NCBI RefSeq assembly: GCF_003236295.1
Contig: NZ_POTW01000040.1
Location: forward strand, 1-53,375
Source: Jiangella anatolica
GTDB lineage: Bacteria; Actinomycetota; Actinomycetes; Jiangellales; Jiangellaceae
Direction of reading: 5' to 3'
Length of the DNA: 53,375 nucleotides
Numbering within the stretch: position 1 is the stretch's first letter; the number at the start of each line of letters is the position of its first letter. The position numbers and the translations under genes are program-made. The notes under the pieces were generated by a model. The model was not told the DNA's origin and searched no databases. It was given only the letters and a program-made list of their open reading frames with translations. This document shows, piece by piece, positions 7,853 to 34,157 of the stretch.

Positions 7853-7862
7853 GGTGCTCCTT

Positions 7863-13363: not shown

Positions 13364-14551
13364 ATGGGCTTACTGCGTCGTGGGCGGCTGGCCGCTGCCA
13401 TGATCACGGCAGTCCTGCTTGCAGCGAGCATGCAGCTGGCGCCGCCGGCCTGGGCGGAGCCGCCGCCGGAGCGGAACGCCGCCACCGAACCGGCCGGACA
13501 GATCGCGGTACTGACTCACAATCTGTTCGTCGGCGCCGATCTTCGCCCGGCGCTGTCCGCGACCGATCAGCCGACGTTCCAGACCGAGCTCCGGAAGGCC
13601 TTGGACCAGATCGCCGACAATCGGTTCCCCTTGCGCGCCGTCTCGCTTGCGCACGAGATCGCGCAGGCGCGGCCACACGTAGTCGCGTTGCAGGAGGTCT
13701 TCGACATCCGGCTCAACGGAGCCAACGCCTCCGGCCCGTACCGCAATCACCTTGATCTGCTGCTGCAGGCTCTGAAGCTGTTCGGCGACGAGTACCGGGT
13801 GGTCTCGCAGGTCCGAACCCTCTCCGCGACGTTTCCGGTCGACCTCGACCGCAACGGCTCGCTCGAGGCCCAGGTCAGCCTGGCCGATCACAACGTCCTC
13901 CTCGTCCGCAAGGACATCCCGGCCGCACCGACTCCGTTCGGGCCGAAGTGCAATCGTCCGAGCCAGGACGGGTGCGTCTACGGGGTCGTCGATCATGCGG
14001 ACCTGCCGAACGGTCGCGTCATCATGGAGCACGGCTATACCGGGGTCGATCTCGCGGTGAACGGCCGTGACTACCGGGTCGTCACCACCCGGGTCGAAGA
14101 CCGCGACCGGCAACTGTCGAACACACCCGAGCCGATCGACCCGCTCTTCGCGACGTTCCAGTCGTTCCAGACGTCGGAACTGATCACGCTGATCGAGAGC
14201 ATGCCGGGCGGGCCGACCGTGATCGTCCTCGGCGATCTCGCCTCCCGGCCTGAGGACGAGGCGGTCGGCCCGCTGGTCGTTCCGCCGCACACCATCTTGT
14301 CGACGAACGGCTTCCGTGACGTGGCGAAGCTCGATCCGAGCCCGCCGGCTCCTGGTCATACCTGCTGCCAGGCCGTCAACCTCCGCAAGAAGAAGCCCCA
14401 GCTCAACCGCCGGCCCGACCACGTCTTCGTCACCGGAACGCCGGTCGAGGTGCAGACGGACATCCTCGGCGACACCTCGCTCGACCGGCTCCTCGCAGGA
14501 GGACGTTGGCCGTCCGACCATGCCGCGGTGTTCGCGACGCTGCGCTACTGA
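13364..14551 (+). CDS. secreted endonuclease/exonuclease/phosphatase-fold protein
   Basis: A 395-residue exported protein. The signal peptide (LLRRGRLAAAMITAVLLAAS) ends near PAWA|EPPP. EEP-superfamily motifs are in order: LTHNLFVG (metal/phosphate Asn), VALQEVFD (metal Glu), LGDLASRPED where GDxN would be usual, RPDHVFV, and SDHAAVF (catalytic Asp-His). The N of GDxN is replaced by A/S, so catalytic efficiency or alignment at that loop is uncertain. The family covers nucleases, sphingomyelinase-like and phosphatase enzymes; the substrate is unknown. ATG at 13364 follows GGAGGAAACGTC. Codon 3 is TTA, a rare leucine codon in such genomes. The end overlaps the LAL gene end by 7 bp, tail to tail. 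Confidence 0.85.
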   Translation: MGLLRRGRLAAAMITAVLLAASMQLAPPAWAEPPPERNAATEPAGQIAVLTHNLFVGADLRPALSATDQPTFQTELRKALDQIADNRFPLRAVSLAHEIAQARPHVVALQEVFDIRLNGANASGPYRNHLDLLLQALKLFGDEYRVVSQVRTLSATFPVDLDRNGSLEAQVSLADHNVLLVRKDIPAAPTPFGPKCNRPSQDGCVYGVVDHADLPNGRVIMEHGYTGVDLAVNGRDYRVVTTRVEDRDRQLSNTPEPIDPLFATFQSFQTSELITLIESMPGGPTVIVLGDLASRPEDEAVGPLVVPPHTILSTNGFRDVAKLDPSPPAPGHTCCQAVNLRKKKPQLNRRPDHVFVTGTPVEVQTDILGDTSLDRLLAGGRWPSDHAAVFATLRY

Positions 14552-17142
14552 GCAGCGTCCAGCCACGTGGCCGCCTGCTTTCGCGCCTCGGCCCGGCTGT
14601 GTACGCCGAGCTTCGAGAGCACGGCGGTCACGTGGTTGCTCGCGGTTCGTACCGAGATCACCAGCCGTTCGGCGATCTCCGCGTCGCTCACGCCGGCGGA
14701 GAGCAACTGCAGCACCTCGTACTGACGGGCGGTCAGTCCCTGCGGGTTCGCCCGGGTGCTGATGGTCGGACCGCGCGGTACGGAGCTGACGCCGTTCTGC
14801 CGCAACCTCCGCCGCACCAGCTGAGCCAGCGGACGTGCGCCCAGCGCGTGCAGGACGTCGAGGGCCGCGAGTTGATCGGCCGGGTCCGGGCTCTCGCTCA
14901 ACGCGAGCGCGTGCTCATACCGGTAACCCGCCGCGTCCCATCGCATCGCGGCTTCCTGCCAACGACCCGCCATCAGCAGCGAGTACGGGTCATCGGTCCC
15001 GAGCGGCTCGACCGGATGACCGGCCTTCGTCAGCCAGAAGGCCAGCTCGGGCCAGGCCCAACTGGAACGGATCCGTAGCCGTCGCGCTTCCTGGTACGGA
15101 CCGGTGGCGATGTCCGCGATCGACCCAACGTCACCGCGGAGCCAGGCGTGCTCGGCGGCGGCCGCCGCCGCATAGCCGATCCAGAGCGTCTCCCCGATTC
15201 GATGGCTGAGGTCCAGCGCAGCGGAGAGCACCGAGGTGGCCTCGGGGTCGCCGGTCCTGGCCTTGACCCGGCCCAGCACGTTGAGCGCCGGGCAGCGGAA
15301 GTGCGCCCTGGGCCCGATCGCCAGGCGTGCGGTGCGCCCCGCCTCATCCCACGAGCCGCGAGCGGACAGGGCTGTGGCGCGAATGATGTAGAGCATGTCG
15401 ACCCAGCCGAACTGCTCGGTCCGTTCGGCGAGCTCGAGTCCTGCCGTGATGTACGGCTCGGCGTCACCCGCCCGGAAGGTGTCGATCAGTTCCCAAGCAA
15501 GGTAGACGTAGGTCCGGCAGGCATCCTCCGTGGCACCCGTCTCGAGCGCGATCTCCAGGGCCTCGTGCAGAACGTCCGTCGACCCCGGTTCGCCCAGCTG
15601 CCACCGCGCGGCACCGATCGTGGTCAACGCGTGGGCGACCGTGGCCCGATCGCCCGTCGCCCGGGCCATCGCGACCGCACGCTCGGCACCCAGCCGAGCC
15701 TCGGTCGCCTTGTGCGCAAGAACGTCGAGCTGAGACTGATGGCTGTACGCGCGCGCCAGCTCCCTGGACGGACCGAGCCGGCCGAGGACCTCGATCGCCT
15801 CCGCAGCCGTTCGCTCGGCCGCTTGCCGGTTTCCACCCCACCACTGCATCCGAGCCAGCCAGCTGAGACCCTGCCCGACGGCGAGATGATCGTGCAACGA
15901 CCGGCGAAGTTCGAGGGCCGACAGTTGGGCGGACACCGCCTCAGCACCGTCACCGACGATGTAGGCCTCGACGGCGTACCCCTCCAGCAGCCGCGCGTGC
16001 TCGTCCCGGGTCAGCTCGCCGGCGTACTCCAAGGCGGCGCGATAGTGGGTGCCGGCCTCACGATGAGCGCCGCTGACGGCTGCGTCCCGGGCGGCGATGG
16101 GCGCGAACCGGAGAATGGCCTCCCGATCTCCGGCCGCCGACGCGTGATGGACCATGTGGGCGACATCGGAGCCCGGACGGCCGATCAACGCCGTCAGCAC
16201 GACCCGGTTGAGTTGGGTCCGCTGGATGCCCGACAGCGAGTCGGCGACAGCGCGCCGGGCGAGTTCGTGGCGGAACGCCACCCGTTGCGGCGTCACCACC
16301 AGCAGGCCCGCCTCCTCCGCCTCGGCCAAGGTCGCCAGCCCGCCGGGGACGACCTCGTCCACCAGCCACCGGTCGATCGCCGACGGGATCACGGCGAGCT
16401 GTTGAACCGCCGCGCGGCCGGCCGCGGGCAGGCGCAGCAGTCGATCCTGGACCGAGTCGACGACGGTCGGCGGGACATTTCCAATCGAGCCCGAGGCGAG
16501 CAGCTCGCTGACGAAGAACGGGTTTCCCGCCGTGACCTCGTACAACTGGTCCGGGTTGAGCAGGCTCCCTGCCGCCAGCTCGCGGACCGCGGCCGCGGAC
16601 AGCCGGCTCAGCGGCATCCGCCGGCACCGGTCGCTTCCGCCGGCGGCCGCCAGCAACTGCTGCAGGGACGGCCCGACGGGCGACTCGTCGTCGCGGTAGG
16701 TCAGCATCAGCACCGCGGGGAGCTGCTCGATGCGTCGCGCCAGATAGCGCAGGACGTCCAAGGTCGCCTCGTCGGCCCAGTGGATGTCCTCGACGGCCAA
16801 CAACGTCGGCCGGTCGCGGCGCTGGAGCTCCGCCAGCAGGGCGGTCAGCAGTCGATCACGGTCGGCGCCGCCCTCCAGCTCGGCGGCGAGGTCGGCACCC
16901 ACGCTGTCGACCATGTCCCGGAACGGTCCGAGCGTGCGCGGCGTCACCAGGTCGTCGCAGTGGCCGACCAACATCCGTCCGTTGGCCGGCATCCGAGCCC
17001 GCATCGCGTCGACCAGCCGCGACTTGCCGATCCCGGCCTCGCCGAAGACCAGGACCACATGCCCGGCGCCGGTGGCCGCCTGCCGCACCAGGTGGGTGAG
17101 ATCGACCAGCTCACGATCCCGCTCGACAAGTCTCCGGTCCAT
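14545..17142 (-). CDS. LAL-type (large ATP-binding LuxR family) transcriptional regulator
   Basis: An 865-residue regulator. It has N-terminal AAA ATPase Walker A GEAGIGKSRLVDAM (about residue 34) and the Walker B region LLAVEDIHWADEATLD. A long helical TPR-like middle part follows (about residues 330-780), and a C-terminal LuxR helix-turn-helix LTARQYEVLQLLSAGVSDAE, ERLVISVRTASNHV. LAL regulators typically activate catabolic or natural-product genes. It is divergent from the FAD oxidoreductase operon with 139 bp between starts, which makes it a candidate pathway regulator alongside the SARP. The effector is unknown. Confidence 0.92.
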   Translation of the reverse strand: MDRRLVERDRELVDLTHLVRQAATGAGHVVLVFGEAGIGKSRLVDAMRARMPANGRMLVGHCDDLVTPRTLGPFRDMVDSVGADLAAELEGGADRDRLLTALLAELQRRDRPTLLAVEDIHWADEATLDVLRYLARRIEQLPAVLMLTYRDDESPVGPSLQQLLAAAGGSDRCRRMPLSRLSAAAVRELAAGSLLNPDQLYEVTAGNPFFVSELLASGSIGNVPPTVVDSVQDRLLRLPAAGRAAVQQLAVIPSAIDRWLVDEVVPGGLATLAEAEEAGLLVVTPQRVAFRHELARRAVADSLSGIQRTQLNRVVLTALIGRPGSDVAHMVHHASAAGDREAILRFAPIAARDAAVSGAHREAGTHYRAALEYAGELTRDEHARLLEGYAVEAYIVGDGAEAVSAQLSALELRRSLHDHLAVGQGLSWLARMQWWGGNRQAAERTAAEAIEVLGRLGPSRELARAYSHQSQLDVLAHKATEARLGAERAVAMARATGDRATVAHALTTIGAARWQLGEPGSTDVLHEALEIALETGATEDACRTYVYLAWELIDTFRAGDAEPYITAGLELAERTEQFGWVDMLYIIRATALSARGSWDEAGRTARLAIGPRAHFRCPALNVLGRVKARTGDPEATSVLSAALDLSHRIGETLWIGYAAAAAAEHAWLRGDVGSIADIATGPYQEARRLRIRSSWAWPELAFWLTKAGHPVEPLGTDDPYSLLMAGRWQEAAMRWDAAGYRYEHALALSESPDPADQLAALDVLHALGARPLAQLVRRRLRQNGVSSVPRGPTISTRANPQGLTARQYEVLQLLSAGVSDAEIAERLVISVRTASNHVTAVLSKLGVHSRAEARKQAATWLDAAQ

Positions 17143-17281: not shown

Positions 17282-18871
17282 ATGAACTCGCAGTCCTATG
17301 ACGCCATCGTGATCGGCAGCGGTCACAATGCCCTGATCACGGCGGCCTACCTGGCCCGCGCCGGCTGGAGCGTCGTGATCCTGGAGCGCAACGACCGGCC
17401 GGGAGGCCTCGTCCGGACCGACGAGCTCACGCTGCCCGGGTTCCGTCACGACACCTATTCGACCGCCCACCCGCTGTTCGTCGCAGGCCCGGCCTATGCC
17501 GACCTCGGCCCCGAGTTGACCGAGCTCGGCCTGGAGTATCGCAACACCCGTTACCCGACCGGCATCTCGCTGTCGTCCGGCGAGTCCGCGGTCCTGTCGA
17601 CCGATCCGGACGAGAACATCGCCGAGGCGGATCGGCTCGCCCCGGGCGACGGCGCGGCCTTGGCCAAACTCCTCGAGGACTTCGAGCCGATGGCCGGGCC
17701 GATCTTCGGACTGTTCGGCGCGGACCTGACCGATCCGGCATCGGCCAAGATCATCTTGGGCCTGCTGCATGACTCCGACGGTGGGCACTCCGAGTTCGCG
17801 CACCTGTTCACGCGGACCGCGCGCGACCTGCTCGAGCAGCGGTTCCGGTCACCCGTCCTGCGCGGCATGCTCGCGCCCTGGGCGGTGCACCTCGGGCGCG
17901 GACCGGACGACGCCAACAGCGCGCTGTGGACGATCTTGGTCTTGCTGGCCCTGACCGGCGCCGGTATGCCGATCCCGGCCGGTGGCAGTGAACGCCTGGT
18001 CGACGCCTTGGTCGGCCTGATCAGGCGCCACGGCGGAGTCGTGGGGTGCGACCGGCAGGTCGACAAGATCGTGGTTCGGCACGGTCGCGCGGTCGGCGTG
18101 GTCACGTCGGACGGCGACGTCGTCCATGCCACGCGGGCCGTGGTGGCCTCGGTCAATCCCGATCAGCTCTATCTCAAGCTGCTCGCCCACGAGCCCGCGG
18201 TCGTACCGCCGCTGATCCGGCGGCAGGCCTCGGAGTATCGCTACGGCCGCGGCTGTGTCCAGGTCCACCTCGCCCTGTCAGAGCCGCCTCGCTTCGCCGA
18301 CGACCGGTTGGCCCGCGTCGGGCAGCCCCACCTCGGCGGCGGTCTCGACGCGACGTCGAAGGCGATCAACGAGGCGGCGCGCGGGCTGCTGCCGGCCGAG
18401 CCGACCATCTCCTTCGACACGCCGTCGACGCTCGATCCGTCTCGGTGCCCACCGGGGAAGTCGATCGCCCGGCTGCAGTTGCTCGAGGTGCCCTGCGTCG
18501 TCCGCGGCGACGCCGCGGGCGAGATCGCGGTCGGCGCCGACGGCTGGACCGAGAGTGTGAAGAACGCCTTCGCCGATCGGGTGATCGAGCAAGCCGGGCG
18601 GCATGCGCCGAACCTGCCCAGGGCGATCCTCGATCGGCACGTCATCGGCCCCGACGACCTGGCCCGGTTCAACCCGAACTGCGGTCCGGGAGATCCGTAC
18701 GGGGGCAGCCACGATCTCAGCCAGAGCTACACGTTCCGGCCCCTGCCCGGCCAGCCGAGCCATCGCTCGACCGTACCGAACGTGTACCTCGTCGGCGCGG
18801 CTACCTGGCCGGGGCACGGTGTCAACGGCTGCTCCGGCTACATCGTCGCACGACAACTGCTGAACCGATGA
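17282..18871 (+). CDS. CrtI-like FAD-dependent oxidoreductase
   Basis: A 529-residue flavoprotein of the phytoene desaturase/amine oxidase type. The N-terminal dinucleotide motif is AIVIGSGHNALITAAYLA, followed by VVILERNDRPGGLVRT. The C-terminal FAD-contact motif is PNVYLVGAATWPGHGVNGCS. Members carry out desaturations, dehydrogenations or amine oxidations, and the substrate cannot be told from sequence. It is not a kynurenine 3-monooxygenase type. First gene of the operon, behind the triple heptamer site; its stop overlaps the next possible ATG (ATGA at 18868). Confidence 0.85.
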   Translation: MNSQSYDAIVIGSGHNALITAAYLARAGWSVVILERNDRPGGLVRTDELTLPGFRHDTYSTAHPLFVAGPAYADLGPELTELGLEYRNTRYPTGISLSSGESAVLSTDPDENIAEADRLAPGDGAALAKLLEDFEPMAGPIFGLFGADLTDPASAKIILGLLHDSDGGHSEFAHLFTRTARDLLEQRFRSPVLRGMLAPWAVHLGRGPDDANSALWTILVLLALTGAGMPIPAGGSERLVDALVGLIRRHGGVVGCDRQVDKIVVRHGRAVGVVTSDGDVVHATRAVVASVNPDQLYLKLLAHEPAVVPPLIRRQASEYRYGRGCVQVHLALSEPPRFADDRLARVGQPHLGGGLDATSKAINEAARGLLPAEPTISFDTPSTLDPSRCPPGKSIARLQLLEVPCVVRGDAAGEIAVGADGWTESVKNAFADRVIEQAGRHAPNLPRAILDRHVIGPDDLARFNPNCGPGDPYGGSHDLSQSYTFRPLPGQPSHRSTVPNVYLVGAATWPGHGVNGCSGYIVARQLLNR

Positions 18872-19707
18872 TCAACTCGACGAGAGGAACTCGATCACCG
18901 ATGCGAGACTCGCAGACGCAGGCCGGCGGCCGGAGCGCCGTGGAGGATCTGCGCGAGATCTTGTCGAAGCCGATCTTCAATCCGGTGCTGAAGACCTGGG
19001 TCGGCGACGGCAGCCACGACTACGAGGTCTACCTGCGGACCAAGGACCTGCTGTCACTGCAGACGTCGGCCGAACTGCTGACCGATTCCGATGAGCTGAT
19101 GTTCCAGATCGTTCACCAGGCGCAGGAAGTCTGGCTCAAACTGATCTCCCATGAGCTGACCGAGATCGTCGGCGATCTTGATCGCGACCGCCTCTGGGAG
19201 GTGGCCGCCCGGCTGGACCGGGTGATCAGGATCAGCTCCTGCCTCGGCGACGAGATCCGGATCCTGGAGACGCTCACGCCGGACACCTATCAGGTGATCC
19301 GGCGCAGTCTCGGCAACGGGAGCGGTCAGGAGTCACCGGGCTTCAACTCGACCCAGACCGCTGCGCGGTACGTGGCGGAGGCGCTCGACCGGCTGCTGGA
19401 ACGCCGAAACCTGCAGGTCACTGACGTGTACGGAGCTGAGAGCGAGGTGGAGCTGAAGCGCATCTGCGAACTGCTGGTGGACTTCGACGAGCGCTACCAG
19501 CTGTGGCTGGTGGCCCACTTCATGCTGGTCCGGCGGACGATCGGGGTCGGGCGGGACGTCAAGGCGCTCGACGGCGTGCCGGCCAGGATCCTGATCGGCC
19601 GGATGACCAAGCCGCTGTTCCACCCGCTCTGGCGCGCCCGGGACGAGATGACCCTGGCCTGGAGCCGGGAGGGCGGACACCGGCCCGGCGCGGAGCGGGC
19701 CGGGTGA
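18868..19707 (+). CDS. tryptophan 2,3-dioxygenase-like heme protein with altered substrate residues
   Basis: A 279-residue protein if the ATGA-overlapping start is used; ATG at 18901 is an alternative. TDO family features: YEVYLRTKDLLSLQTS, ELMFQIVHQAQEVWLKL (His83 matches the distal TDO histidine), ILETLTPDTYQVIRRSL, and QLWLVAHFMLVRRTIG (His217 matches the proximal heme ligand). In TDOs the signature GFQSxQ[FY]R supplies an Arg that holds the tryptophan carboxylate. Here the stretch is PGFNSTQTAARY, with Ala at the aligned position and an Arg two residues later. The glycine-rich GTGGSSG loop after the proximal helix is also absent (GVGRDVKALDGVPAR instead). Heme binding looks intact, but the substrate or reaction may differ. 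Alignment was by eye. Confidence 0.8.
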   Translation: MINSTRGTRSPMRDSQTQAGGRSAVEDLREILSKPIFNPVLKTWVGDGSHDYEVYLRTKDLLSLQTSAELLTDSDELMFQIVHQAQEVWLKLISHELTEIVGDLDRDRLWEVAARLDRVIRISSCLGDEIRILETLTPDTYQVIRRSLGNGSGQESPGFNSTQTAARYVAEALDRLLERRNLQVTDVYGAESEVELKRICELLVDFDERYQLWLVAHFMLVRRTIGVGRDVKALDGVPARILIGRMTKPLFHPLWRARDEMTLAWSREGGHRPGAERAG

Positions 19708-20831
19708 CCGGCGTGCTCGATGCCGTCCGGGCCGAGTTCCCGGTGCTGACCGACTGCGTCTACCTGAACAGCAACTCGACCGGCGCGATCCCGCGTGGCG
19801 TCGAACCGATCCTGCGAACGTACTGGCACACCCTGAGCCATTGGCGCGACACGGCCTGGATCGGCTGGCTCGACGAGTTGACCGCCTACCGGGACACCCT
19901 CGCGGACTTCATCGGCGCGCCCCGGGGAACGGTGGTCACCGACACGAACGTGAGCACTCTCCTCGGCCGGATCGGCAGCTGTTTCGACTTCCGCGGTGAG
20001 CGGAACCGGGTGGTCACCAGTGACCTCGAGTTTCCGACGGTCCCGTTCGTCTGGGCGGGGTTCGCCCGCCACGGCGCCCACCTCGTGGCCGCCGGATCCG
20101 GCGGCCCGGAGTTCGATCTCGACGCGCTCGAGGCCGCGATCGACGAGCGCACCCGGCTCGTCTGCGTCTCCCACGGCAGCTACACCACCGGCGCGATCCT
20201 GGACCTCGATCGAGTCATCGCCCGCGCCCACGAGGCAGGGGCGCTGGTCGTGGTCGACGCCTTCCAAACCGTCGGTTCGGTGCCGCTGGACGTGGGCGCA
20301 CTCGACGCCGACTTCGTCCTCGGCGGGGCGCACAAGTGGATGTGCGGCACCCACACCGCCTTCCTGTACGTGCGCCCCGACCTGCTCCCGACCCTCCGGC
20401 CGGCCGCCACCGGGTGGTTCGCCGGCGCCGATCCGCTCGCGTTCCAGGAGTCCTCGGAACCCGCGGCTGACGCGCAGCGCTTCGCCGGCGGGACGCCGAT
20501 CCCGATCACCGCGATGATGTCGCGAGTCGGCCTGGACCTGCTGGCGGCGGCCGGCTCGGCGCAGATCCGGGCGCACTCCCTGCGCTGCACCGACACGATC
20601 ATCCAGCGAGCCGACGCAGCCGGGATCGAGGTTCGTACGCCACGTGAGCCCGAGCGTCGTGGGGGCATGATCAACTTGCGCTTCCCCGGCGATCGTCAGG
20701 TCGTACCTCGACTGGCTCGGCGCGGCCTGATCTGCAGCTGGCGCGACGGACTGCGGGTCGCGCCGCACCTCTACAACACCATCGACGAGGTGGAGACGTT
20801 CATGGATGCCCTGACGGAGCTGGCCCGATGA
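19704..20831 (+). CDS. kynureninase-like class V PLP enzyme
   Basis: A 375-residue fold-type I PLP enzyme. The GTG at 19704 overlaps the preceding TGA (GTGA). Kynureninase-like features are VYLNSNSTGAIPRG near the N-terminus, a conserved W-rich helix HWRDTAWIGWLDEL, SDLEFPTVPFVWAG, and the PLP-Asp strand ALVVVDAFQTVGSVPLDVG. The lysine region FVLGGAHKWMCGTHTAF (Lys about 211) should form the Schiff base. Kynureninases cleave kynurenine to anthranilate and alanine. Related enzymes include isopenicillin-N-epimerase-like and desulfurase-like proteins, so the exact reaction is open. The position directly after a TDO-like gene favours kynurenine-type chemistry. Confidence 0.8.
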   Translation: MTGVLDAVRAEFPVLTDCVYLNSNSTGAIPRGVEPILRTYWHTLSHWRDTAWIGWLDELTAYRDTLADFIGAPRGTVVTDTNVSTLLGRIGSCFDFRGERNRVVTSDLEFPTVPFVWAGFARHGAHLVAAGSGGPEFDLDALEAAIDERTRLVCVSHGSYTTGAILDLDRVIARAHEAGALVVVDAFQTVGSVPLDVGALDADFVLGGAHKWMCGTHTAFLYVRPDLLPTLRPAATGWFAGADPLAFQESSEPAADAQRFAGGTPIPITAMMSRVGLDLLAAAGSAQIRAHSLRCTDTIIQRADAAGIEVRTPREPERRGGMINLRFPGDRQVVPRLARRGLICSWRDGLRVAPHLYNTIDEVETFMDALTELAR

Positions 20832-21880
20832 CACCGCGCGCTCTGATCAGCCTGCTGTACAACGGATCGAAGGCGGTCGACGTGCTGCAGGCGGCGCTCG
20901 ACCTGCGAATCCTCGACGCGCTCGACCCTGGGCCGGTCACGCTGGGCGAGCTCAGCGACCGTCTCGGGCTGATCCCCGGCCGGCTGTACAAGCTGCTCGA
21001 CTGCCTGGAGTCCCTTGGCCTGCTCGAGCCGGCCCGGCCGCGCCCCGGAGAACGGCGGGAGTATCGCGCGGTCGCCGGTCTGCGGGAAGCCGTCGATGAC
21101 GTGCTCGGTCCGGCGTCGATCGAGCGTGACCGAGACCGTCATCCCTGGACCGTCCTGCACGGCCGGCTGCCGGAGGTCCTTCGTGGAGACTTCGGCATGC
21201 CCGACGAGGCCTTCAGCTGGCCTCCCGCCGACGAGGCGCAGATCGCCTCGTTCGAGCAGAGCATGGCGGCGGGCCTCGGGCCCTTCGTCGAGAGCTTTCG
21301 ATCCAACGCCCCGCGGCTCTGGGGCGGCCGGGAACGGGTCCGGCTGCTCGACGTCGGTGGCGGCGACGGCACGCTGGCCGCGCGCCTGCTCCCCGGGACT
21401 CCTGGACTGACGATCGACGTGTACAACCTGCCCGCGATCCGGCCGTTGGTCGATCGGACCCGGTCGGCGCTGGACTGCGGATCCCGGCTGGGCTTCGTCG
21501 GCGGCGACTTCCTCACCGAACCGCTGCCGACGGGCTACGACGCCATGTCCTTCGTCCGCGTCCTGCACGACTGGCCGGCGGAGACTGCGCACCAGCTGCT
21601 GCGGAGGGGCTTCCAGGCCTTGGCACCCGGTGGCCGGGTGATGATCAGCGAGGAGTTCCGGACTCCCGAGCGGCTCGCGCGGCAGTTCTTCTGGTCCTAC
21701 TTCCTGATCGGCGTGGACAGCTGTTCCAGCATGCTCCGTGAGCTGAGCGAGTACGCCGGCATCCTGGACCTGGTGGGGTTCTCCGACATCGAGATCCTTC
21801 CCGGACCGGTCGAGATCCTGCTGGCGACCAAGCCCGGCACCGCTCCAGGACTTGAGCAGACTCAGCCGAGATCTGAGTAG
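20828..21880 (+). CDS. SAM-dependent methyltransferase, O-methyltransferase fold
   Basis: A 350-residue protein overlapping the previous gene by ATGA. It has an N-terminal winged-helix dimerisation domain (ALDLRILDALDPGPVTLGEL), then SAM motif I RLLDVGGGDGTLAARLL (about residue 172), the acidic motif region GFVGGDFLTEPLP, and VRVLHDWPAETAHQLL, the HDW catalytic motif of small-molecule O-methyltransferases. Homologous proteins also act as C- or N-methyltransferases on aromatic amino-acid derivatives, for example 3-hydroxykynurenine methylation in pyrrolobenzodiazepine and actinomycin pathways. Which atom is methylated here is unknown. Last gene of the tightly coupled operon. Confidence 0.85.
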   Translation: MTPRALISLLYNGSKAVDVLQAALDLRILDALDPGPVTLGELSDRLGLIPGRLYKLLDCLESLGLLEPARPRPGERREYRAVAGLREAVDDVLGPASIERDRDRHPWTVLHGRLPEVLRGDFGMPDEAFSWPPADEAQIASFEQSMAAGLGPFVESFRSNAPRLWGGRERVRLLDVGGGDGTLAARLLPGTPGLTIDVYNLPAIRPLVDRTRSALDCGSRLGFVGGDFLTEPLPTGYDAMSFVRVLHDWPAETAHQLLRRGFQALAPGGRVMISEEFRTPERLARQFFWSYFLIGVDSCSSMLRELSEYAGILDLVGFSDIEILPGPVEILLATKPGTAPGLEQTQPRSE

Positions 21881-21950
21881 TGATTGCTCAGTGCCTACCG
21901 CACCGGCGACGGCGATGCTGGCTCCACTGCGACCCGAGGGGGGATTCTGC

Positions 21951-23666
21951 ATGTGGTATGGCATCTTGGGGCCGCTGGAGGTTGCCCGGAACGGACGTCC
22001 GGTCCTGGTGGGAGGCCCGCAGCAGCAGGTGCTGCTCAGCGTGCTGTTGCTGAGCGCGAACGTGCTGGTGCCCGCCGATCGGCTGGTCGATCATCTCTGG
22101 GGTGACGAGCCGCCGTCGAGCGCACGCCAGCTCCTGCACGGCTGTGTCGCGAACCTGCGCCGGGCCCTGGCAGGCGCGGACGGCGAGCACCAGCCGCTCG
22201 AGCGCCAGGGACCGGGCTATCTGATCCGGGTCGGCCCAGGGGATCTGGACCGGAGCAGGTTCGACGACCTGGTGGCCGCGGCGAGGACATCCGGCGCCGA
22301 CCGAACGCGAGCCGGGTGGGAGCACCGTTCGTCGTTGTTGCAGCAGGCCTTGCGGCTCTGGCGTGGACCCGTGCTCGACGGGATCGCGCTCGAGAGTTGC
22401 CTCCCCGAGACCGTCGCGCTCGAGGAGGCACGGCTGCGGGTCCTGGAGCAACGGGTCGAGGCGGACCTGATCCTCGGCCGGCACGCCGAGGTGGTGCCCG
22501 AACTGCAGGCGCTCACGCGGGTGCACCCGCTGCGGGAACACCCACGGAAGCTGCTCATGGCGGCACTGGCGCGATGCGGTCGGCCCGCCGATGCTCTGGC
22601 GGTGTTCCGTGACCTTCGCGAAGCCTTGATGGGCGAGCTCGGCGTGGAACCGTCGATCTCGGTTCAGGAGCTGCATCAGCAGATCCTGACCGGCGGCGAC
22701 GGGCTCGAGGACGACGACCAGACGGTCGTCGAGATCGCCGCGCCGCCGCGCAGGCTCGGGCCGCGATCGGTCGCGGCTGAGTCACACGGAGCGGCGGCCG
22801 GCGAGCAGGTGATTCGCTACGCGATGCTCGACGGACGATCGATCGCATGGTCCGCTCTCGGCAGCGGGCCACCGTTGGTCTTCGCCAGCTGGAGCTTCAG
22901 CCGGCTCGAACCGGACTGGCACGACCCAGCCTTCCAGCGGTTCGTCCGGAAGCTCGCCGAGCATCAGACGGTGATCCGATACGACCGGTGGGGAACGGGA
23001 CTGTCCGACGCCGGCCCGGTGTCGAGCTCGCTGGCCGAGGAGGTGGAGGTCCTTGCCGCCGTTGTCGATGCGGCGACCGGGGTGCTGGGCGTTCCCGGCG
23101 CACCGGTCGACCTGTTCGGGGCTTCCAGCGGGGGATGCATCGCCGGCTCCTACGCCGCGACGCGACCCGAACGCGTGGATCGTCTCGTCCTGTTCGGAGC
23201 GTATGCCTCCGGCGACCGCATCGCGTCACCGCGGACCCAGGAAGCGCTGCTCACCGTCGTCGGCTCGCATCCAGATCTGAGCTCACACATTCTGGCCGGC
23301 CTCCTGCTGCCCGGCCAGACCGTGGCCGAACGCGACGATTTCGCCCGCGTCCTGCGCTCCTCCACCAGCCCGGAGCGCGCGGCGCAGTCGCTCGAGGCGG
23401 CGTTCGCGTTCGACACGCGGGCGCAGCTCGGGCAGATCGACGCCGCGACCCTCGTCGTCCATCGCCGGGCCGATCGCGTGGTGCCGGTCGGGCTCGGCCA
23501 GGACCTCGCCAGCCGCATCCCGGGCGCCGCGTTCGTCCCTCTCGACGGCGTCGACCACCTCCCGTGGAGCGGCGATCTCGACACGCCCGCACGACTGGTG
23601 ATCGACTTCCTCGACGACGAGTCCGCCGCGGCGATCACCCGCCGGCGAGGTCGCCACGTCGCCTGA
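21951..23666 (+). CDS. SARP (BTAD) regulator fused to an alpha/beta-hydrolase
   Basis: A 571-residue fusion. Residues 1-95 are an OmpR-type winged helix (WYGILGPLEVARNGRPV; GPQQQVLLSVLLL; VDHLWGDEPPSSARQLLHGC). Residues about 100-245 form the BTAD domain (SRFDDLVAAAR; RLRVLEQRVEADLILGRH; RKLLMAALARCGRPADALAV). After a linker, residues 285-560 are an alpha/beta-hydrolase: RYDRWGTGLSD, nucleophile loop DLFGASSGGCIAG (Ser about 391), acid region VVHRRADRVVP and base region DGVDHLPWSGD. All three triad members appear present. The start ATG follows GAGGGGGGATTCTGC. It is probably the pathway-specific activator binding the heptamers at 17195-17223; the hydrolase may sense or modify a pathway ligand. 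This last point is speculation. Confidence 0.9.
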   Translation: MWYGILGPLEVARNGRPVLVGGPQQQVLLSVLLLSANVLVPADRLVDHLWGDEPPSSARQLLHGCVANLRRALAGADGEHQPLERQGPGYLIRVGPGDLDRSRFDDLVAAARTSGADRTRAGWEHRSSLLQQALRLWRGPVLDGIALESCLPETVALEEARLRVLEQRVEADLILGRHAEVVPELQALTRVHPLREHPRKLLMAALARCGRPADALAVFRDLREALMGELGVEPSISVQELHQQILTGGDGLEDDDQTVVEIAAPPRRLGPRSVAAESHGAAAGEQVIRYAMLDGRSIAWSALGSGPPLVFASWSFSRLEPDWHDPAFQRFVRKLAEHQTVIRYDRWGTGLSDAGPVSSSLAEEVEVLAAVVDAATGVLGVPGAPVDLFGASSGGCIAGSYAATRPERVDRLVLFGAYASGDRIASPRTQEALLTVVGSHPDLSSHILAGLLLPGQTVAERDDFARVLRSSTSPERAAQSLEAAFAFDTRAQLGQIDAATLVVHRRADRVVPVGLGQDLASRIPGAAFVPLDGVDHLPWSGDLDTPARLVIDFLDDESAAAITRRRGRHVA

Positions 23667-23739: not shown

Positions 23740-24756
23740 ATGACCATCCGGAAAGCTGGCCACACCGTGCGTACGGTGTGTCGTCTTGCGATCGCTGGGG
23801 CGCTGACCCTGGCACTGAGCGCAGGCGCTGTCCTGACCACGACGGGGTCGGCCAGCGCGTCGAAGATCCACGCGATCGGCGTCGTCACGCCGCCGGCACC
23901 GCCGGACAGGTTGGAGCCGGCGAGTTTCAGGGAAGTCCACGCATATCTCTACCCGGACAGCACCGGCCGCGCCGGCGGCTATGTCTCCTGTCCGCAAGGC
24001 ATGAAGGCCGTGACAGGCGGCGCCACCGCCGCCGCCCCGAACGCAGGGCTCCTCACCGGTCTGACACCGACCTACGACGGGAACGGCTGGTACGCCAGCG
24101 CCGTGCTCCCTCTTTGGGCTCCGGACACGGGGGTGCTGGACCTGGAGGTGATCTGCGCCTGGCCGGAGCAGCTGTCCAGCGTCGCCACGCTGACCCGCAC
24201 GGTGCAGGCTCAGTATGACAGCTCGATACACACCACGCATTACCGCGACTTTCGCGGCTGCCCTGACGGGAAGGCCCTGTTTGGCGGCGGAGCATTCACG
24301 ACACAGGATGGCGTGATCGTGAACGCGCCATCCGGGGGCTCCGGCCCGTTCCTCAACGCCATGGCGCCGCTCGGCAGCTTCTGGGTCAATGGGAGTGCGA
24401 AGGCTGACTCGCCGACGACGGGCGTCGCCATGGAGAGCTACCTGCGTTGCATCGATCCCTTCCAGCTCGGCACGTCCGTGAGCGCCACAGCCTCTGGACC
24501 GTCGAGGACTGACGGGGTACAGACAACGGTGACGGCGTTCTGCCCCTCTGGCCACACCGCCTACACCGGCGGCGCCTACTGGACAGACGGACACGGCAGC
24601 CTGCGAATTTCGCACATCTCCTTCAACCGAACAGCCTGGACCGCCCAGGGCAAAGGCAACAACGGCGCCAGCCTCCAGGTCGAGGTGCGGTGCATCCGCA
24701 CCGACCAGGTCGCTACTCCCCCGGTGATAGCGACGCTGAACTCGGTGCCTCGCTAG
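23740..24756 (+). CDS. secreted protein with three internal CPxG...GGA repeats, function unknown
   Basis: A 338-residue exported protein. The signal peptide (VCRLAIAGALTLALSAGAVL) ends around ASASK. The mature part consists of three homologous units of roughly 80-90 residues. Each opens with a Cys-Pro motif and a GGA (SCPQGMKAVTGGATAA; GCPDGKALFGGGAFTT; FCPSGHTAYTGGAYWT) and ends with a Cys after a beta strand (LDLEVICA; ESYLRCID; LQVEVRCI). This gives one cysteine pair per unit, likely disulfides outside the cell. No enzyme motif is visible and I do not recognise the family. A good ribosome site AAAAGGGAG precedes ATG. Confidence 0.75.
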   Translation: MTIRKAGHTVRTVCRLAIAGALTLALSAGAVLTTTGSASASKIHAIGVVTPPAPPDRLEPASFREVHAYLYPDSTGRAGGYVSCPQGMKAVTGGATAAAPNAGLLTGLTPTYDGNGWYASAVLPLWAPDTGVLDLEVICAWPEQLSSVATLTRTVQAQYDSSIHTTHYRDFRGCPDGKALFGGGAFTTQDGVIVNAPSGGSGPFLNAMAPLGSFWVNGSAKADSPTTGVAMESYLRCIDPFQLGTSVSATASGPSRTDGVQTTVTAFCPSGHTAYTGGAYWTDGHGSLRISHISFNRTAWTAQGKGNNGASLQVEVRCIRTDQVATPPVIATLNSVPR

Positions 24757-24833: not shown

Positions 24834-25283
24834 CTACCGGAAGCGCGAGAGCACGTCGGCGACGCACGCGGGCTTCGTCCGGCCCTCGATCTCGAGTGCC
24901 AGACGCGTGTGCACCTGGATGCTGTCGCCGACGGGTTCGGCCCGCACGATCTCTCCGTGGGCCCGCACGCGCGAGCCGACGGGCACGGGGCTGGGAAAGC
25001 GCACGCGGTCCAGCCCGTAGTTGATGACGGCCGACGCGTCGACGACCTCGAGGAGCTCGAACACGAAGCCCGAGATCAGCGAGAGGGTCAGGTAGCCGTG
25101 CGCGATGGTCGTGCCGAATGGACCGGCGGCGGCGCGCTCGCGGTCGACGTGGATCCATTGGTGATCGCCGGTGGCCTGGGCGAAGGTGTCGATGCGCGCT
25201 TGATCGACTGTCGTCCAGCTGGAGCGGCCGAGGTCGATCGGAACGGCCGAGGTGAGCTCCGCGAGCGTGATGGAGGTCGTCAC
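24834..25283 (-). CDS. MaoC-like enoyl-CoA hydratase
   Basis: A 149-residue single hot-dog protein. The hydratase motif region is ATGDHQWIHVDRERAAAGPF followed by GTTIAHGYLTLSLISGF, the catalytic Asp/His context of (R)-specific enoyl-CoA hydratases. GTG at 25283 overlaps the TGA of the SDR gene (GTGA). With the SDR and acyl-CoA dehydrogenase upstream it can form the first three steps of a beta-oxidation cycle through an (R)-3-hydroxyacyl-CoA. The chain specificity is unknown. Confidence 0.9.
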   Translation of the reverse strand: MTTSITLAELTSAVPIDLGRSSWTTVDQARIDTFAQATGDHQWIHVDRERAAAGPFGTTIAHGYLTLSLISGFVFELLEVVDASAVINYGLDRVRFPSPVPVGSRVRAHGEIVRAEPVGDSIQVHTRLALEIEGRTKPACVADVLSRFR

Positions 25284-26017
25284 ATCGAGGCCCCGCCGTC
25301 GACCGGCAGGGTGATCCCGGTGATGTATCCGGCCTCCTCGGAGGCGAGGAACGACACGGCCGCCGCCATCTCGTCGGGGCGGCCGAAGCGGCCCATCGGC
25401 ACGACGGCCGCGAGCTCTGCGAGCTTGGCCTCGGGGATCGACTCGATCATCCGCGTCGCGGCGTTCGGGAGCAGCGCGTTCACGGTGATGCCGAAGGCGG
25501 CGACCTCCTTCGCGACCGTCTTGGTGAAGCCGATGATGCCGGCCTTCGCCGCGGAGTAGTTCGCCTGGCCGGTGTTGCCACGCACGCCGCTGTACGACGT
25601 CACGTTGATGATGCGCCCGTACTCCTGCTTGCGGAAGTGCGGGATCGCGGCGCGCGTCATGCGGAACGTGCCGCCGAGGTGGATGGCCATGACCTCGTTC
25701 CAGTCGTCGTCGGTGAGCTTCCAGACGACGCGGTCGCGCAGGATGCCCGCGTTGTTGACGACGATGTCGAGCCGGCCCGACTCGGCGACGACGCGAGCGA
25801 CCTCCGCCTCGACCGCCGCCGTGTCGCTGACGTCGAGCGGGAGCGCGTCTGCGTCGATCGCGGCCGCCGCGACGCCGGCCTCCTCGACGTCGTAGTCGGC
25901 GACGTAGACCGTCGCGCCCGCCCTGCGGAGGTGGGTCGCCAGAGCGAGGCCGATGCCGCGTGCCGCGCCCGTGACGATGGCCGTGCGACCGGTGAAGTCG
26001 AAGGACAGGTTGCCCAT
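25280..26017 (-). CDS. short-chain dehydrogenase/reductase, FabG-like
   Basis: A 245-residue classical SDR. It has cofactor motif GAARGIGLAL, NNAG, catalytic Ser in NVTSYSG, YSAAKAG (Tyr and Lys), and the C-terminal ITLPVDGGASM typical of FabG-like 3-oxoacyl reductases and 3-hydroxyacyl-CoA dehydrogenases. It is encoded between acyl-CoA dehydrogenase and MaoC hydratase genes, so oxidation of a 3-hydroxyacyl-CoA is the likely direction. ATG at 26017 follows GGAAGGATCCCC. Confidence 0.9.
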   Translation of the reverse strand: MGNLSFDFTGRTAIVTGAARGIGLALATHLRRAGATVYVADYDVEEAGVAAAAIDADALPLDVSDTAAVEAEVARVVAESGRLDIVVNNAGILRDRVVWKLTDDDWNEVMAIHLGGTFRMTRAAIPHFRKQEYGRIINVTSYSGVRGNTGQANYSAAKAGIIGFTKTVAKEVAAFGITVNALLPNAATRMIESIPEAKLAELAAVVPMGRFGRPDEMAAAVSFLASEEAGYITGITLPVDGGASM

Positions 26018-26070
26018 GGGGATCCTTCCAGTGCGGATGGGATGTCGAGCCGGCGGCGACCGCCGCCGGC

Positions 26071-27216
26071 TCAGAGACCGAGGTCGCGGCCGATGAGCTC
26101 CTTCATGATCTCGTTCGAGCCGGCCCAGATCTTGGTGACCCGGGCGTCCTGCCACGCGCGCGCGGCCCGGTACTCGGTCATGTAGCCGTAGCCGCCGTGC
26201 ACCTGCACGCAGTGGTCGAGCACCTCGTTCTGGATCTCGGCGGTCCACCACTTGGCCTTCGCCGCGTCGACGGCGCTCAGGTCGCCGGCGGCGTGCGCCG
26301 TCACGCAGTCGTCGACGTAGGCCTGCGTCACCTCGACCTTGGTGACCAGCTCCGCGAGCAGGAACTTGAGGTGCTGGAAGCTGCCGATCGGCTGCCCGAA
26401 CGCCTCGCGCGCCCGCGCGTACTCGAGCGTCTCGTCGAGGATCCGGCGCGCGTGTGCAAGGTTGCACACGGCCGAGCCGAGACGCTCCTGCGGCAGCAGC
26501 CGCATCATGTGCGCGAAACCGCGATCCAGCTCGCCGATCAGCTGGTCCTCGGCGACCCGGACGTCCTCGAAGAACAGCTCGGCGGTGTCGGCCTCGGGCT
26601 GGCCGACCTTCTCCAGCTTGCGTCCGCGACTAAACCCCTCGCTCGGGAAGTCGATCGCGAAGAGGCTGATGCCGTGCGTGCGTGGCCCGCCACCCGTGCG
26701 CGCCGCGACGAGCACGAGGCCGGCGGAGGCGCCGTTCGTGATGAACGTCTTCGACCCGCTGACCAGCCATCCCCTGTCCACTCGCGTCGCCCGCGTCTTC
26801 AGCGCGCCGAGATCGGTGCCGCCCGAGGGCTCGGTCATCGCGATCGCCGACACGAGCTCACCCGTCGCCATCCGCGGCAGCCACCGCTCGCGCTGCTCGG
26901 GAGTGCCGAACCGCACGAGGTACGGAACGACGACGTCGAAGTGGATGCTGAGCGACGAGGCGAGGCCCATCGTCACCTTCGAGAGCTCCTCGATGAAGAC
27001 GGCGTTGAACCGATAGTCCTCCGGGGCCGAGCCGCCGTACTCCTCCGGGATTTCCAGACCGAGCAGTCCGGCCTCGCCCGCCTTGCGCCACACGTCGCGG
27101 CCGATCGCGTGGCCGGCACGAAACTCGTCGATGTGGCCGACGACCTCGCGCTCGAGGAACGTCCGCGCCATCGCCCGGAACGCCTCGTGGTCCTCGAGGT
27201 AGACCGTCCGCTTCAT
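26071..27216 (-). CDS. acyl-CoA dehydrogenase
   Basis: A 381-residue flavoprotein of normal length. Motifs: SAIAMTEPSGGTDLGALKT (FAD/substrate), GSKTFITNGASAG, REAFGQPIGSFQHLKF (FAD phosphate), VHGGYGYMTEY, and IWAGSNEIMKELIGRDL at the C-terminus. The usual catalytic Glu of the medium-chain type (YEGT) is replaced by WAGS. LLPQERL matches the helix-G Glu position of long-chain and isovaleryl-CoA dehydrogenases, so the enzyme is probably active and of that type. The ATG at 27216 is preferred; a GTG at 27249 overlaps the promoter. It is controlled from the palindrome at 27252-27275. Confidence 0.92.
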   Translation of the reverse strand: MKRTVYLEDHEAFRAMARTFLEREVVGHIDEFRAGHAIGRDVWRKAGEAGLLGLEIPEEYGGSAPEDYRFNAVFIEELSKVTMGLASSLSIHFDVVVPYLVRFGTPEQRERWLPRMATGELVSAIAMTEPSGGTDLGALKTRATRVDRGWLVSGSKTFITNGASAGLVLVAARTGGGPRTHGISLFAIDFPSEGFSRGRKLEKVGQPEADTAELFFEDVRVAEDQLIGELDRGFAHMMRLLPQERLGSAVCNLAHARRILDETLEYARAREAFGQPIGSFQHLKFLLAELVTKVEVTQAYVDDCVTAHAAGDLSAVDAAKAKWWTAEIQNEVLDHCVQVHGGYGYMTEYRAARAWQDARVTKIWAGSNEIMKELIGRDLGL

Positions 27217-27251
27217 CGTTCGCTCCTTCGGATCGGCGAGCCGCCTCACCA

Positions 27252-27275
27252 GATTCTAAGCGATCGCTTAGAATC
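27252..27275. promoter_or_regulatory. 24-bp perfect palindrome, candidate TetR operator
   Basis: The arms GATTCTAAGC and GCTTAGAATC flank a GATC centre with no mismatch. It lies 35 bp before the acyl-CoA dehydrogenase ATG and 59 bp before the divergent TetR ATG. The length and symmetry are typical for TetR operators. Confidence 0.75.
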
Positions 27276-27334
27276 TTTGGCGATGATACTCTGCCGGCCG
27301 ACGCACGGGTGTCAAGCGTTGAAGGGGTGGGTCG

Positions 27335-27958
27335 ATGGTCACGTCCCCGCCCGCGCCGGGCGCGAGGAAGAGCAACGCCCGCGGCATCCGAGGTCGCGCG
27401 CGGCTACTCGACAGCGCGTTGCGGGCATTCGCGTCGAGGGGCTTCCACGGTGCGACCACGCGCGAGATCGCCGACGACGCCGGCATGAGCGCGGCCGCGG
27501 CGTACGCGCACTTCCCGACGAAGGAGTCGATGCTCTACGAGCTCTCGCTTCGCGGGCACACGGAGGCGCTCGCGACGATCGAGACCGCGGCGGGCGAGGA
27601 CGGACCGCCCGTCGAGCGGCTCCAGCGCGCGATGACCGCGTTCTCGACGTGGCACGCGAGGAGCCACACGACGGCCCGCGTCGTGCAGTACGAGATGGCG
27701 GCGCTCACGCCCGAGCACGCGGCCGAGATCGCGACGATCCGCCGGCGTACTCAGCGCATCGTCACCGCCCTCATCGAGGAGGGCATGGCGACCGGCGAGT
27801 TCGGCGACGACGACGCGCACGCGGCGGGGCTCGCCATCCTCTCGATGGGCATCGACGTCGCGCGCTGGTACCGCGACGACGGCGCCTGGTCGCCCGACGA
27901 GATCGGCGCCCGGAACGGTCGCTGGGCCGTCACCATGCTCGGCGGCCGGCCCGCCTAA
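27335..27958 (+). CDS. TetR-family regulator
   Basis: A 207-residue protein. The N-terminal helix-turn-helix is LLDSALRAFASRGFHGATTR followed by EIADDAGMSAAAAYAHFPTK. The C-terminal ligand domain is helical with a YRDDGAWSPDEIG stretch. It is divergent from the acyl-CoA dehydrogenase operon across a perfect palindrome, so it probably represses that operon and itself until an acyl-CoA ligand binds. Its TAA overlaps the TAG of the next TetR gene by 2 bp, tail to tail. Confidence 0.9.
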   Translation: MVTSPPAPGARKSNARGIRGRARLLDSALRAFASRGFHGATTREIADDAGMSAAAAYAHFPTKESMLYELSLRGHTEALATIETAAGEDGPPVERLQRAMTAFSTWHARSHTTARVVQYEMAALTPEHAAEIATIRRRTQRIVTALIEEGMATGEFGDDDAHAAGLAILSMGIDVARWYRDDGAWSPDEIGARNGRWAVTMLGGRPA

Positions 27959-28548
27959 CCTCGGACGATCGCGACGAGCACCGGCATCGCGACGTCCACG
28001 AGGGTCTCCACCTCGGCGTCGGACCCGCACGCCACCACGCGCTCGGCGACCTCGCCGATCGCGGCGGTGAGGATCGCCACCCGGAGATCATTCGCCGCGG
28101 ACTCGGGCCAGCCGAGCAGCGTCAGATTCCGCCAGACCCACCTCTGCGTACGTCGCCGCTGAGCGGTCGCGAGCTCGGCCGGCACGTCGATCCCGCGATA
28201 GACCGCCTCGATGCCACGGTGCTCCCAGACGGTGCGCAGATAGACCCGCGTGCCGACCTCGAGCAGGGCCAGCGGGTCGGGGTCGCCCGACCGCCGCGCG
28301 CCGCGGACCGCGTCGGCGACCCGCTCCTCGTACCGGTCCTGGTGCGACTCCCACGCGGCGACGAAGAGATCGGCCTTTCCGCCGAAGTGGTGGTAAAGGC
28401 TGCCCGTGCTCACCCCCGCGCGCACCGCGACGTCGCCGATGCTCGCCCCCTGGTAGCCGTCGGCCTCGAACGTCCTCGCCGCGGCGTCCACGATGTCCCG
28501 CCTGCGCTGGACGGAACTCCCCCAGGTCCGCTGCCCGCTCGCGCCCAT
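27955..28548 (-). CDS. TetR-family regulator
   Basis: A 197-residue protein. The HTH is DIVDAAARTFEADGYQGASI then GDVAVRAGVSTGSLYHHFGG. It is closer in sequence style to FadR/KstR-type regulators than to its neighbour at 27335. It is divergent from the two-gene acyl-CoA dehydrogenase operon, with a 73-bp gap that contains three ATTCNNGAAT-like units. The start at 28548 was taken as the first in-frame ATG; MGASGQR precedes the conserved domain. Confidence 0.9.
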   Translation of the reverse strand: MGASGQRTWGSSVQRRRDIVDAAARTFEADGYQGASIGDVAVRAGVSTGSLYHHFGGKADLFVAAWESHQDRYEERVADAVRGARRSGDPDPLALLEVGTRVYLRTVWEHRGIEAVYRGIDVPAELATAQRRRTQRWVWRNLTLLGWPESAANDLRVAILTAAIGEVAERVVACGSDAEVETLVDVAMPVLVAIVRG

Positions 28549-28561
28549 CTCGACCCCGCCC

Positions 28562-28591
28562 TTGACATGCGATCCGCTGGATCAGCATCAT
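28562..28591 (+). promoter_or_regulatory. candidate promoter of the dehydrogenase pair
   Basis: TTGACA at 28562-28567 is a consensus -35. CATCAT at 28586-28591 is a possible -10 with an 18-bp spacer. Transcription would begin about 25 bases before the ATG at 28622, inside the repeat array. Confidence 0.45.
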
Positions 28592-28625
28592 TCGAGAATT
28601 GATTCCAGAATGGATTATAGAATGA
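28590..28625 (+). repeat. three tandem 12-bp units overlapping a start codon
   Basis: The units are ATTCGAGAATTG, ATTCCAGAATGG and ATTATAGAATGA. The first two contain the dyad ATTC-NN-GAAT, and the third has lost half of it. The last unit includes the ATG at 28622. This is probably a multi-copy operator for the divergent TetR at 27955. Confidence 0.6.
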
Positions 28626-29836: not shown

Positions 29837-29837
29837 C

Positions 29838-30944: not shown

Positions 30945-30952
30945 GCCGGCGA

Positions 30953-34040: not shown

Positions 34041-34066
34041 CTGGATCCTTCTCCCCAACGGGCACG

Positions 34067-34100: not shown

Positions 34101-34157
34101 CCCGGCCGGCGAAGGTCGCGTGACTCGGCGGGCGGGCGCCGTTAGCATCGTGGAGCC

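Follow-up and report, generated by a model that had tools for sequence, protein, structure and literature searches.

A stand-alone TDO-like, kynureninase-like and methyltransferase gene set in Jiangella anatolica, a conserved variant of a known theme with two altered active sites

What might a tryptophan dioxygenase (TDO)-like oxygenase, a kynureninase-like enzyme and a methyltransferase make together when no assembly line accompanies them? The question is raised by a locus of Jiangella anatolica on contig NZ_POTW01000040.1, of which positions 1 to 53,375 were analysed (53,375 nt, referred to here as the window). Four overlapping genes at 17282-21880, all on the + strand, encode in order a CrtI/CrtO-like flavin adenine dinucleotide (FAD) oxidoreductase, called here the flavoenzyme (17282-18871; PF01593, Amino_oxidase, and PF13450, NAD_binding_8), a TDO-like heme aromatic oxygenase of 279 aa, TDOL (18868-19707; PF03301), a kynureninase-like pyridoxal phosphate (PLP) enzyme of 375 aa, KYNL (19704-20831; PF00266, Aminotran_5, and PF22580, KYNU_C), and a PF00891-type S-adenosylmethionine-dependent methyltransferase of 350 aa, OMT (20828-21880; PF00891, Methyltransf_2, and PF08100). 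The operon is real, conserved and compact, a variant of the TDO/kynureninase/methyltransferase theme with two informatively altered active sites. We give about even weight to the view that it is a stand-alone specialised-metabolite operon whose TDOL-KYNL-OMT core would form a methylated tryptophan-derived aromatic through oxidation by TDOL, side-chain removal by KYNL and methylation by OMT.

An earlier reading of this DNA, made from the letters alone (the sequence-only reading), had described four genes overlapping by ATGA or GTGA, and a check of the open reading frames (ORFs) bears out both coordinates and overlaps: ATGA between the flavoenzyme and TDOL genes, GTGA between TDOL and KYNL, and ATGA between KYNL and OMT. 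An alternative TDOL start, an in-frame ATG at 18901, would abolish the overlap with the flavoenzyme gene.

The conserved unit is smaller than the four-gene operon and consists of the three genes TDOL, KYNL and OMT, the triad. A TDOL scan of genome contigs gave 33 loci, and in the 12 closest (60-85% TDOL identity; Microlunatus, Kribbella, eight Nocardia, Rhizohabitans and Micromonospora, from five families) the gene order TDOL-KYNL-OMT is kept throughout. Because this order recurs in 12/12 close relatives, the gene set is not a product of chance. The sequence-only reading had allowed that relatives might not keep these genes together; the triad is kept together in all 12, while the flavoenzyme, which that reading counted in the set, is optional (9/12). 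The 4-bp overlap of TDOL and KYNL is found in all 12 relatives and that of KYNL and OMT in ten, counts which depend on the chosen starts. In a tree, the triad TDOLs form one clade (support 100/99); according to a program warning, L075, L038, L045, L041 and the canonical TDO sit on long branches and their placement is unsure. Residue counts and tree omit L054, whose TDOL is truncated. For L070, L072 and L073, whose coordinates ran beyond a stop, the tree used the part before the first stop and the residue counts the longest piece free of stops. The tree leaves out a canonical TDO from L080 that was in a wrong frame. The row sets differ: A5 omits L052 and L054, A3 omits L026 and L030, A4 omits L030, and A1 holds 12 of the 19 KYNLs.

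The triad-type TDOL is rare and its distribution is patchy. Ten of 393 sampled genomes of the class match TDOL at E 1e-30, that of the window being the only one of triad type and the other nine weaker, and no match at this threshold was found in 11 other genomes of the same genus. Among 251 sampled genomes of the Nocardia family, the only match came from the N. vulneris genome used as centre. We rejected the idea of a wider conserved cluster: both a neighbour survey and Pfam assignments of ten flanking genes show flanks that differ by locus. Besides the flavoenzyme and a LuxR-type gene described below, every neighbour detected was limited to one or two genera; the survey covered about 10 kb of flank (less on one contig) and used a rough gene caller, by which some known genes were missed. 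Genes for an AMP-ligase and a 4HBT thioesterase lie directly upstream of the triad in two close Nocardia species (L025:7552-9895 and L026:7542-9879; Pfam for L025 only) and could add an activation step there.

The flavoenzyme is linked to the triad in nine of the 12 relatives, upstream in Microlunatus and directly downstream in seven Nocardia; in N. panacis it lies about 6 kb from the triad on the other strand. A homologue search covering nine of the 13 triad genomes showed the linked copy to be the only homologue above 40% identity in six of them (the window's included; 48-88% in the other five), and the three without a linked copy gave homologues of 32-33% only. We regard the flavoenzyme for this reason as a real but optional member. 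It stays below the phytoene desaturase model TIGR02734 (125.8 vs 238.1 bits). Pfam assignments of flanking genes place additional flavoenzymes downstream in L028 and L029.

The window's genome carries, elsewhere, a canonical TDO (C226) and a canonical kynureninase (C245; 255.4 bits against the TIGR01814 cut-off of 246.4), so that TDOL and KYNL are a second, dedicated set, unlikely to be housekeeping. In Microlunatus parietis, TDOL and KYNL are the sole matches of TDO or kynureninase type and TDOL must therefore itself start the pathway there. That the set stands alone, as had been proposed, is upheld at genome scale: the 7.0-Mb assembly (256 contigs, with a stated completeness of 100) has 0 matches to a nonribosomal peptide synthetase (NRPS) condensation domain and nine to the PF00109 ketosynthase, of which a single clear one (178 bits) lies on another contig and the others are partial and below 30 bits. 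The genome thus has no detected NRPS, and nothing points to a modular polyketide synthase. As a separate observation, six Nocardia genomes (G024, G025, G027, G028, G029 and G033; for example G028:C2:98127-100090) include a third TDO gene (82-95 bits in the best stretch) directly beside a kynureninase-like gene (184-196 bits, below the TIGR01814 cut-off), which is perhaps part of another specialised pathway.

TDOL and KYNL had been called TDO-like and kynureninase-like. The families are indeed related, and both proteins are non-canonical and lack defining active-site features. TDOL matches the Pfam Trp_dioxygenase family with 82.2 bits against a cut-off of 34.9 (query with three extra upstream codons and lacking the last 30) and scores only 100.3 bits against the 390.7 of the TDO equivalog TIGR03036 (query again without the last 30 codons). 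Numbered by alignment to XcTDO, the equivalents of Tyr24, Tyr27, Phe51, His55, Tyr113, Arg117 and the proximal His240 are kept in 13/13 triad members; Tyr113 is not diagnostic, as the canonical TDO of the window's genome has Phe. About 40 residues are missing from the middle of the protein, where TDO has helices F and G, in both alignment and model. Neither the PASG nor the GTGGS loop occurs in any of the 13 triad rows, PASG being replaced by NGSG, KGSG or QGSG. The register of the second loop, with Thr254 equivalent to Leu234, is anchored on relatives with GTQGT; with Thr254 set against Ala233 the triad also has no Thr.

The AlphaFold model of TDOL (pLDDT 83) places it nearest to MarE, an oxygenase that forms 2-oxindole. 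MarE chains take ranks 1-5 in a fold search (9CA3_A, TM 0.75/0.82) and, among the chains listed, TDOs take ranks 6-44 with query-normalised TM of 0.50-0.67. TDOL aligns to MarE in one stretch and to TDOs in two, and shows the compact fold without helices F and G that marks the MarE type; MarE is likewise simplified in this region according to section 8 of PMC11904535, the part drawn on here. Yet identity in the fold alignment is 25%, and the sequence profile of TDOL prefers XcTDO (145 bits) to MarE (88 bits). The MarE loops SLGGR and DATG are absent from TDOL, which has ALDGV and N/K/Q-GSG and shares with SLGGR a Leu and one Gly, and the position of MarE Arg235 is Val or Met in the triad. A residue resembling MarE Arg243 was dropped as a marker, the canonical TDO having Arg in the same column. 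TDOL is neither a plain TDO nor a plain MarE. The cited parts of PMC12312684 report that swapping loops shifts the balance of mono- and dioxygenation in TDO and MarE and describe MarE without ascorbate as primarily a dioxygenase; the number of oxygen atoms transferred by TDOL is therefore not readable from these features.

KYNL scores 44.8 bits against KYNU_C (cut-off 27; query with 30 extra upstream codons) and 91.9 against the 246.4 bits of the kynureninase equivalog TIGR01814. Its closest solved relative, by sequence (about 29% identity) and by fold, is the P. fluorescens kynureninase 1QZ9, the KYNL model having a pLDDT of 74 and being built on 12 sequences. Equivalents of the PLP lysine Lys227 and of Asp201, Phe129 and Trp256 are kept; that of Asp132 is Val in triad KYNLs. 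OMT is conserved in all 12 relatives, and its His247, within an HDW motif, is invariant in the 11 aligned. A histidine in this motif fits O-methylation, and O- or N-methylation by OMT is more likely than C-methylation; SibL is not among the top OMT matches, a ranking which does not favour SibL-like C-methylation.

From the gene order, its conservation, the residue and fold features, the separate canonical TDO and kynureninase genes and the lack of a detected condensation domain, we infer substrate, reactions, product and regulation as follows. TDOL would bind L-tryptophan, a plausible source of the product, or a simple derivative through the conserved Arg and distal His and, with O2, oxidise the indole ring, with ring opening to an N-formylkynurenine-type intermediate as the most likely outcome. 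KYNL, using PLP, would cleave the alanine side chain to leave an (N-formyl)anthranilate-type aromatic, which OMT would methylate. The flavoenzyme, where present, may perform one further oxidation, and control of the operon probably lies with the divergent LuxR-type regulator. The product is probably a methylated tryptophan-derived aromatic of anthranilate type. There is precedent in antimycin, whose AntN and AntP, a TDO and a kynureninase, supply anthranilate for a specialised product (PMC3869250, part cited), and in mycemycin, with comparable genes plus a SibL-like methyltransferase (PMC5867642, part cited).

Several observations weigh against this route. The tyrosine and histidine at 226 and 204 are catalytically important in kynureninase and are present in the three canonical kynureninases aligned, including that of the window's genome; triad KYNLs have His or Gly for Tyr226 and Gln for His204. 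In TDOL, GTGGS has become ALDGV throughout the triad (ALDGM in one member), and a MarE-like loop placed in TDO moved its activity toward monooxygenation, as the cited parts of PMC12312684 describe. At E 1e-10, neither the window's genome nor that of M. parietis gave a match to the arylformamidase family TIGR03035. Among distant relatives, L075 (genome G129; 3820-8211) combines a KYNL and an OMT 61% and 59% identical to the window's with a different TDOL, and the kynurenine-like contexts of L073-type TDOLs described below are not directly transferable to the triad, because these TDOLs have a GTQGT loop, closer to TDO. Finally, the non-triad genome G374 has a flavoenzyme homologue of 45% identity at a distance from TDOL, and this enzyme family therefore also exists independently.

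Some of these points have counterparts. The KYNLs of L067, L070, L072 and L073, which lie near GTQGT-type TDOLs, have also lost both Tyr226 and His204, so that their loss need not mean another reaction. The formamidase search covered 11 of the 13 triad genomes; at 1e-10, matches were found in 5/18 genomes, and five of six non-actinobacterial genomes gave none. The cut is strict: the cyclase of L073 itself scores E 1.7e-8 and would be missed, and the absence holds for the classical formamidase only. KYNL may therefore accept a formylated compound, or another hydrolase may act.

The wider family gives a view of how TDOL and KYNL are associated. The loop is of SLKG type in 20/20 non-actinobacterial rows (one SLKN) and GTQGT in 8/8 additional actinobacterial rows, with L075 showing neither type. 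A KYNL gene is found near TDOL in 6/21 non-actinobacterial loci, several on short contigs, and within the fetched DNA in five of nine further actinobacterial loci, the pair of L067 being more than 6 kb apart; sorted by loop, it is nearby in 13/13 ALDGV-type, 6/21 SLKG-type and 4/8 GTQGT loci. In L073, TDOL adjoins KYNL and is followed on the same strand by genes for an FAD monooxygenase and for a cyclase (PF04199) that weakly resembles arylformamidase, as the kynurenine route predicts, with a Rieske protein in the context. Around L067 there are ABC amino-acid transport, flavin reductase, luciferase-type monooxygenase and flavin mononucleotide oxidoreductase genes, and around L071 thiolase, enoyl-CoA hydratase and short-chain dehydrogenase/reductase (SDR) genes. 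The contexts of L073, L067 and L071 fit tryptophan breakdown; no genes of this type were seen among the neighbours of L068. Neighbours of TDOLs in metagenome-assembled genomes (MAGs) are mostly uninformative (GCV_T, RibBA, HAD, TPR), except in a UBP7 MAG, where a row of three genes comprises TDOL, a homologue of tryptophanase and a relative of KYNL (28%) (L038:9989-13710).

The TDOL of L075 groups with those of L070, L072 and L073, although a long branch and unusual composition leave its place unsure; its residues at the Arg117 and Tyr113 positions are Gln and Phe. Between it and KYNL lies a second TDO-like gene which keeps Arg117 and has Leu at His55; the two, with complementary defects, are possibly a split or two-subunit oxygenase. 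Since L075 keeps KYNL and OMT with another TDOL, these two appear tightly coupled and the oxygenase replaceable.

Alternatively, and this we consider possible with a distinctly smaller share of confidence, TDOL is of MarE type and transfers mainly one oxygen, giving oxindolyl- or 3-hydroxypyrroloindoline-alanine, with KYNL as an adapted PLP lyase (releasing an oxindole, for example) and OMT as the methylating enzyme. The model ranks MarE chains above all TDO chains listed, TDOL shares with MarE the loss of the helix F/G region and aligns with it in a single stretch, its loop [A/S]-L-x-G-x resembles SLGGR, KYNL lacks Tyr226 and His204, and in L038 a tryptophanase homologue stands between TDOL and KYNL. 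The higher profile score for XcTDO argues the other way, as do the unconserved Arg235 and MarE's own primarily dioxygenase behaviour without ascorbate (PMC12312684, in the cited parts). KYNL, moreover, is nearest to kynureninase in both sequence and fold, an enzyme requiring a ring-opened substrate. If true, this would be an undescribed way of fragmenting tryptophan. We rate as rather unlikely that TDOL and KYNL are a co-evolved tryptophan-fragmenting pair bypassing classical N-formylkynurenine, with relatives of the pair in Planctomycetota, in a UBP7 bacterium and in Actinomycetota. On this view a MarE-like oxygenase would form an oxindole- or pyrroloindoline-type amino acid, its side chain would be lost to a kynureninase-fold lyase lacking Tyr226 and His204, and in actinobacteria OMT would turn the remainder into a small methylated metabolite derived from indole or oxindole.

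A tryptophan-catabolic or detoxifying set, with OMT acting on a toxic intermediate and no specialised product, is unlikely. It would agree with the surroundings of related actinobacterial TDOLs, which in L067 include ABC amino-acid transport, KYNL and flavin enzymes and in L071 catabolic genes of CoA type, but the window's genome has canonical TDO and kynureninase elsewhere, the distribution is very patchy, the three or four linked genes include no transporter and no ring-cleavage gene, and a LuxR-type regulator accompanies the set in two relatives.

Actinomycin- and pyrrolobenzodiazepine-like pathways carry a TDO, a kynureninase and a PF00891 methyltransferase (SibL), and the sequence-only reading had pointed to them. 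Despite the comparable genes of mycemycin (PMC5867642, part cited), it is very improbable that the operon is a 3-hydroxy-4-methylanthranilate module with its assembly line elsewhere or lost, and we rejected it for this genome, in which no condensation domain was found; no hydroxylase or formamidase is among the linked genes, SibL is absent from the top OMT matches, and KYNL is non-canonical, unlike MymQ of mycemycin with its 44% identity to P. aeruginosa KynU (PMC5867642, same part). The analogy is weak, with a KYNL of another type and no sign of 3-hydroxylation: the operon has no kynurenine 3-monooxygenase, a statement limited to the operon since no genome-wide search was made. An auxin-degradation enzyme was also set aside, being in the cited part of PMC12633357 a Rieske enzyme and not of the TDOL family. 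No description of the operon's gene set was found among the titles and abstract starts listed in searches of open-licence literature.

The regulator of the operon is better sought upstream than downstream. The pathway-type regulator said to follow the operon is indeed adjacent: a SARP (BTAD) regulator that carries a fused alpha/beta-hydrolase domain (21951-23666, +; PF03704 and PF00561, Abhydrolase_1), which lies outside the conserved unit. Its ORF was listed as 21852-23666 from a TTG (the Pfam query used this start), and ATG at 21951 is the more likely start, 70 bp downstream of OMT and without overlap. No SARP homologue adjoins the triad in the 12 loci (tblastn), and we therefore rejected it as a conserved pathway regulator; weak matches lie some kb away in L024, L031, L032 and L034, and a more distant BTAD/TPR regulator is found about 0.3 kb upstream of the triad in Rhizohabitans L032. 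Its hydrolase domain (PF00561) may serve as a ligand sensor. The better candidate is the divergent AAA_16 and LuxR-type (LAL) regulator (14545-17142, -; PF13191 and PF00196), with a homologue of 84% identity at the same place in M. parietis L023 and one of 64% beside the triad in Kribbella L024; none was found near the other ten triad loci at E 1e-8. Alignment of the divergent promoter region with L023 and a promoter scan yielded nothing usable.

Further downstream, the window encodes a 338-aa protein that by eye has a likely signal peptide and that matches no Pfam family (23740-24756) and acyl-CoA catabolic genes (24834-36100: MaoC, two acyl-CoA dehydrogenases, biotin carboxylase, carboxyltransferase and thiolase, with an SDR-like frame by eye). 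The latter resemble a cluster for degrading branched-chain or isoprenoid acids and are independent of the TDOL operon.

Whether TDO and MarE transfer one or two oxygen atoms is decided in part by an active-site loop, which has been probed with loop-swap mutants (PMC12312684, parts cited). The natural loops ALDGV, SLKG-type and GTQGT, with a natural KYNL partner in all or some of the loci, make the question testable on natural enzymes. As there are three or four genes, no detected NRPS in the genome and expression should be easy, the product may be found directly.

Compared with known systems, TDOL shares with XcTDO (2NW8; TIGR03036) the heme-dependent aromatic oxygenase fold, His55, Arg117, His240, Phe51 and the Tyr24, Tyr27 and Tyr113 positions, but is some 40 aa shorter in mid-protein, has both loops replaced and falls far below the equivalog cut-off. 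MarE (9CA3) is its nearest solved fold, with the same compact architecture, simplified middle helix and Leu in the loop replacing GTGGS; it differs in its low identity (25%), in the Arg235 that TDOL lacks and in a profile score lower than that of XcTDO. KYNL has the fold of kynureninase (1QZ9; TIGR01814), Lys227, Asp201, Phe129, Trp256, the C-terminal Arg and the KYNU_C domain, and departs from it by the loss of Tyr226, His204 and Asp132, an identity of about 29% and a score well below the equivalog cut-off. At the level of gene clusters, the TDO, kynureninase and methyltransferase genes of sibiromycin sit with NRPS genes. Those for TDO and kynureninase in antimycin, also in a specialised-metabolite setting, lie beside NRPS genes, whereas the operon consists of three or four genes alone. 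Mycemycin has the same enzyme classes in the same kind of setting, together with ligase and carrier-protein genes and a kynureninase of canonical type.

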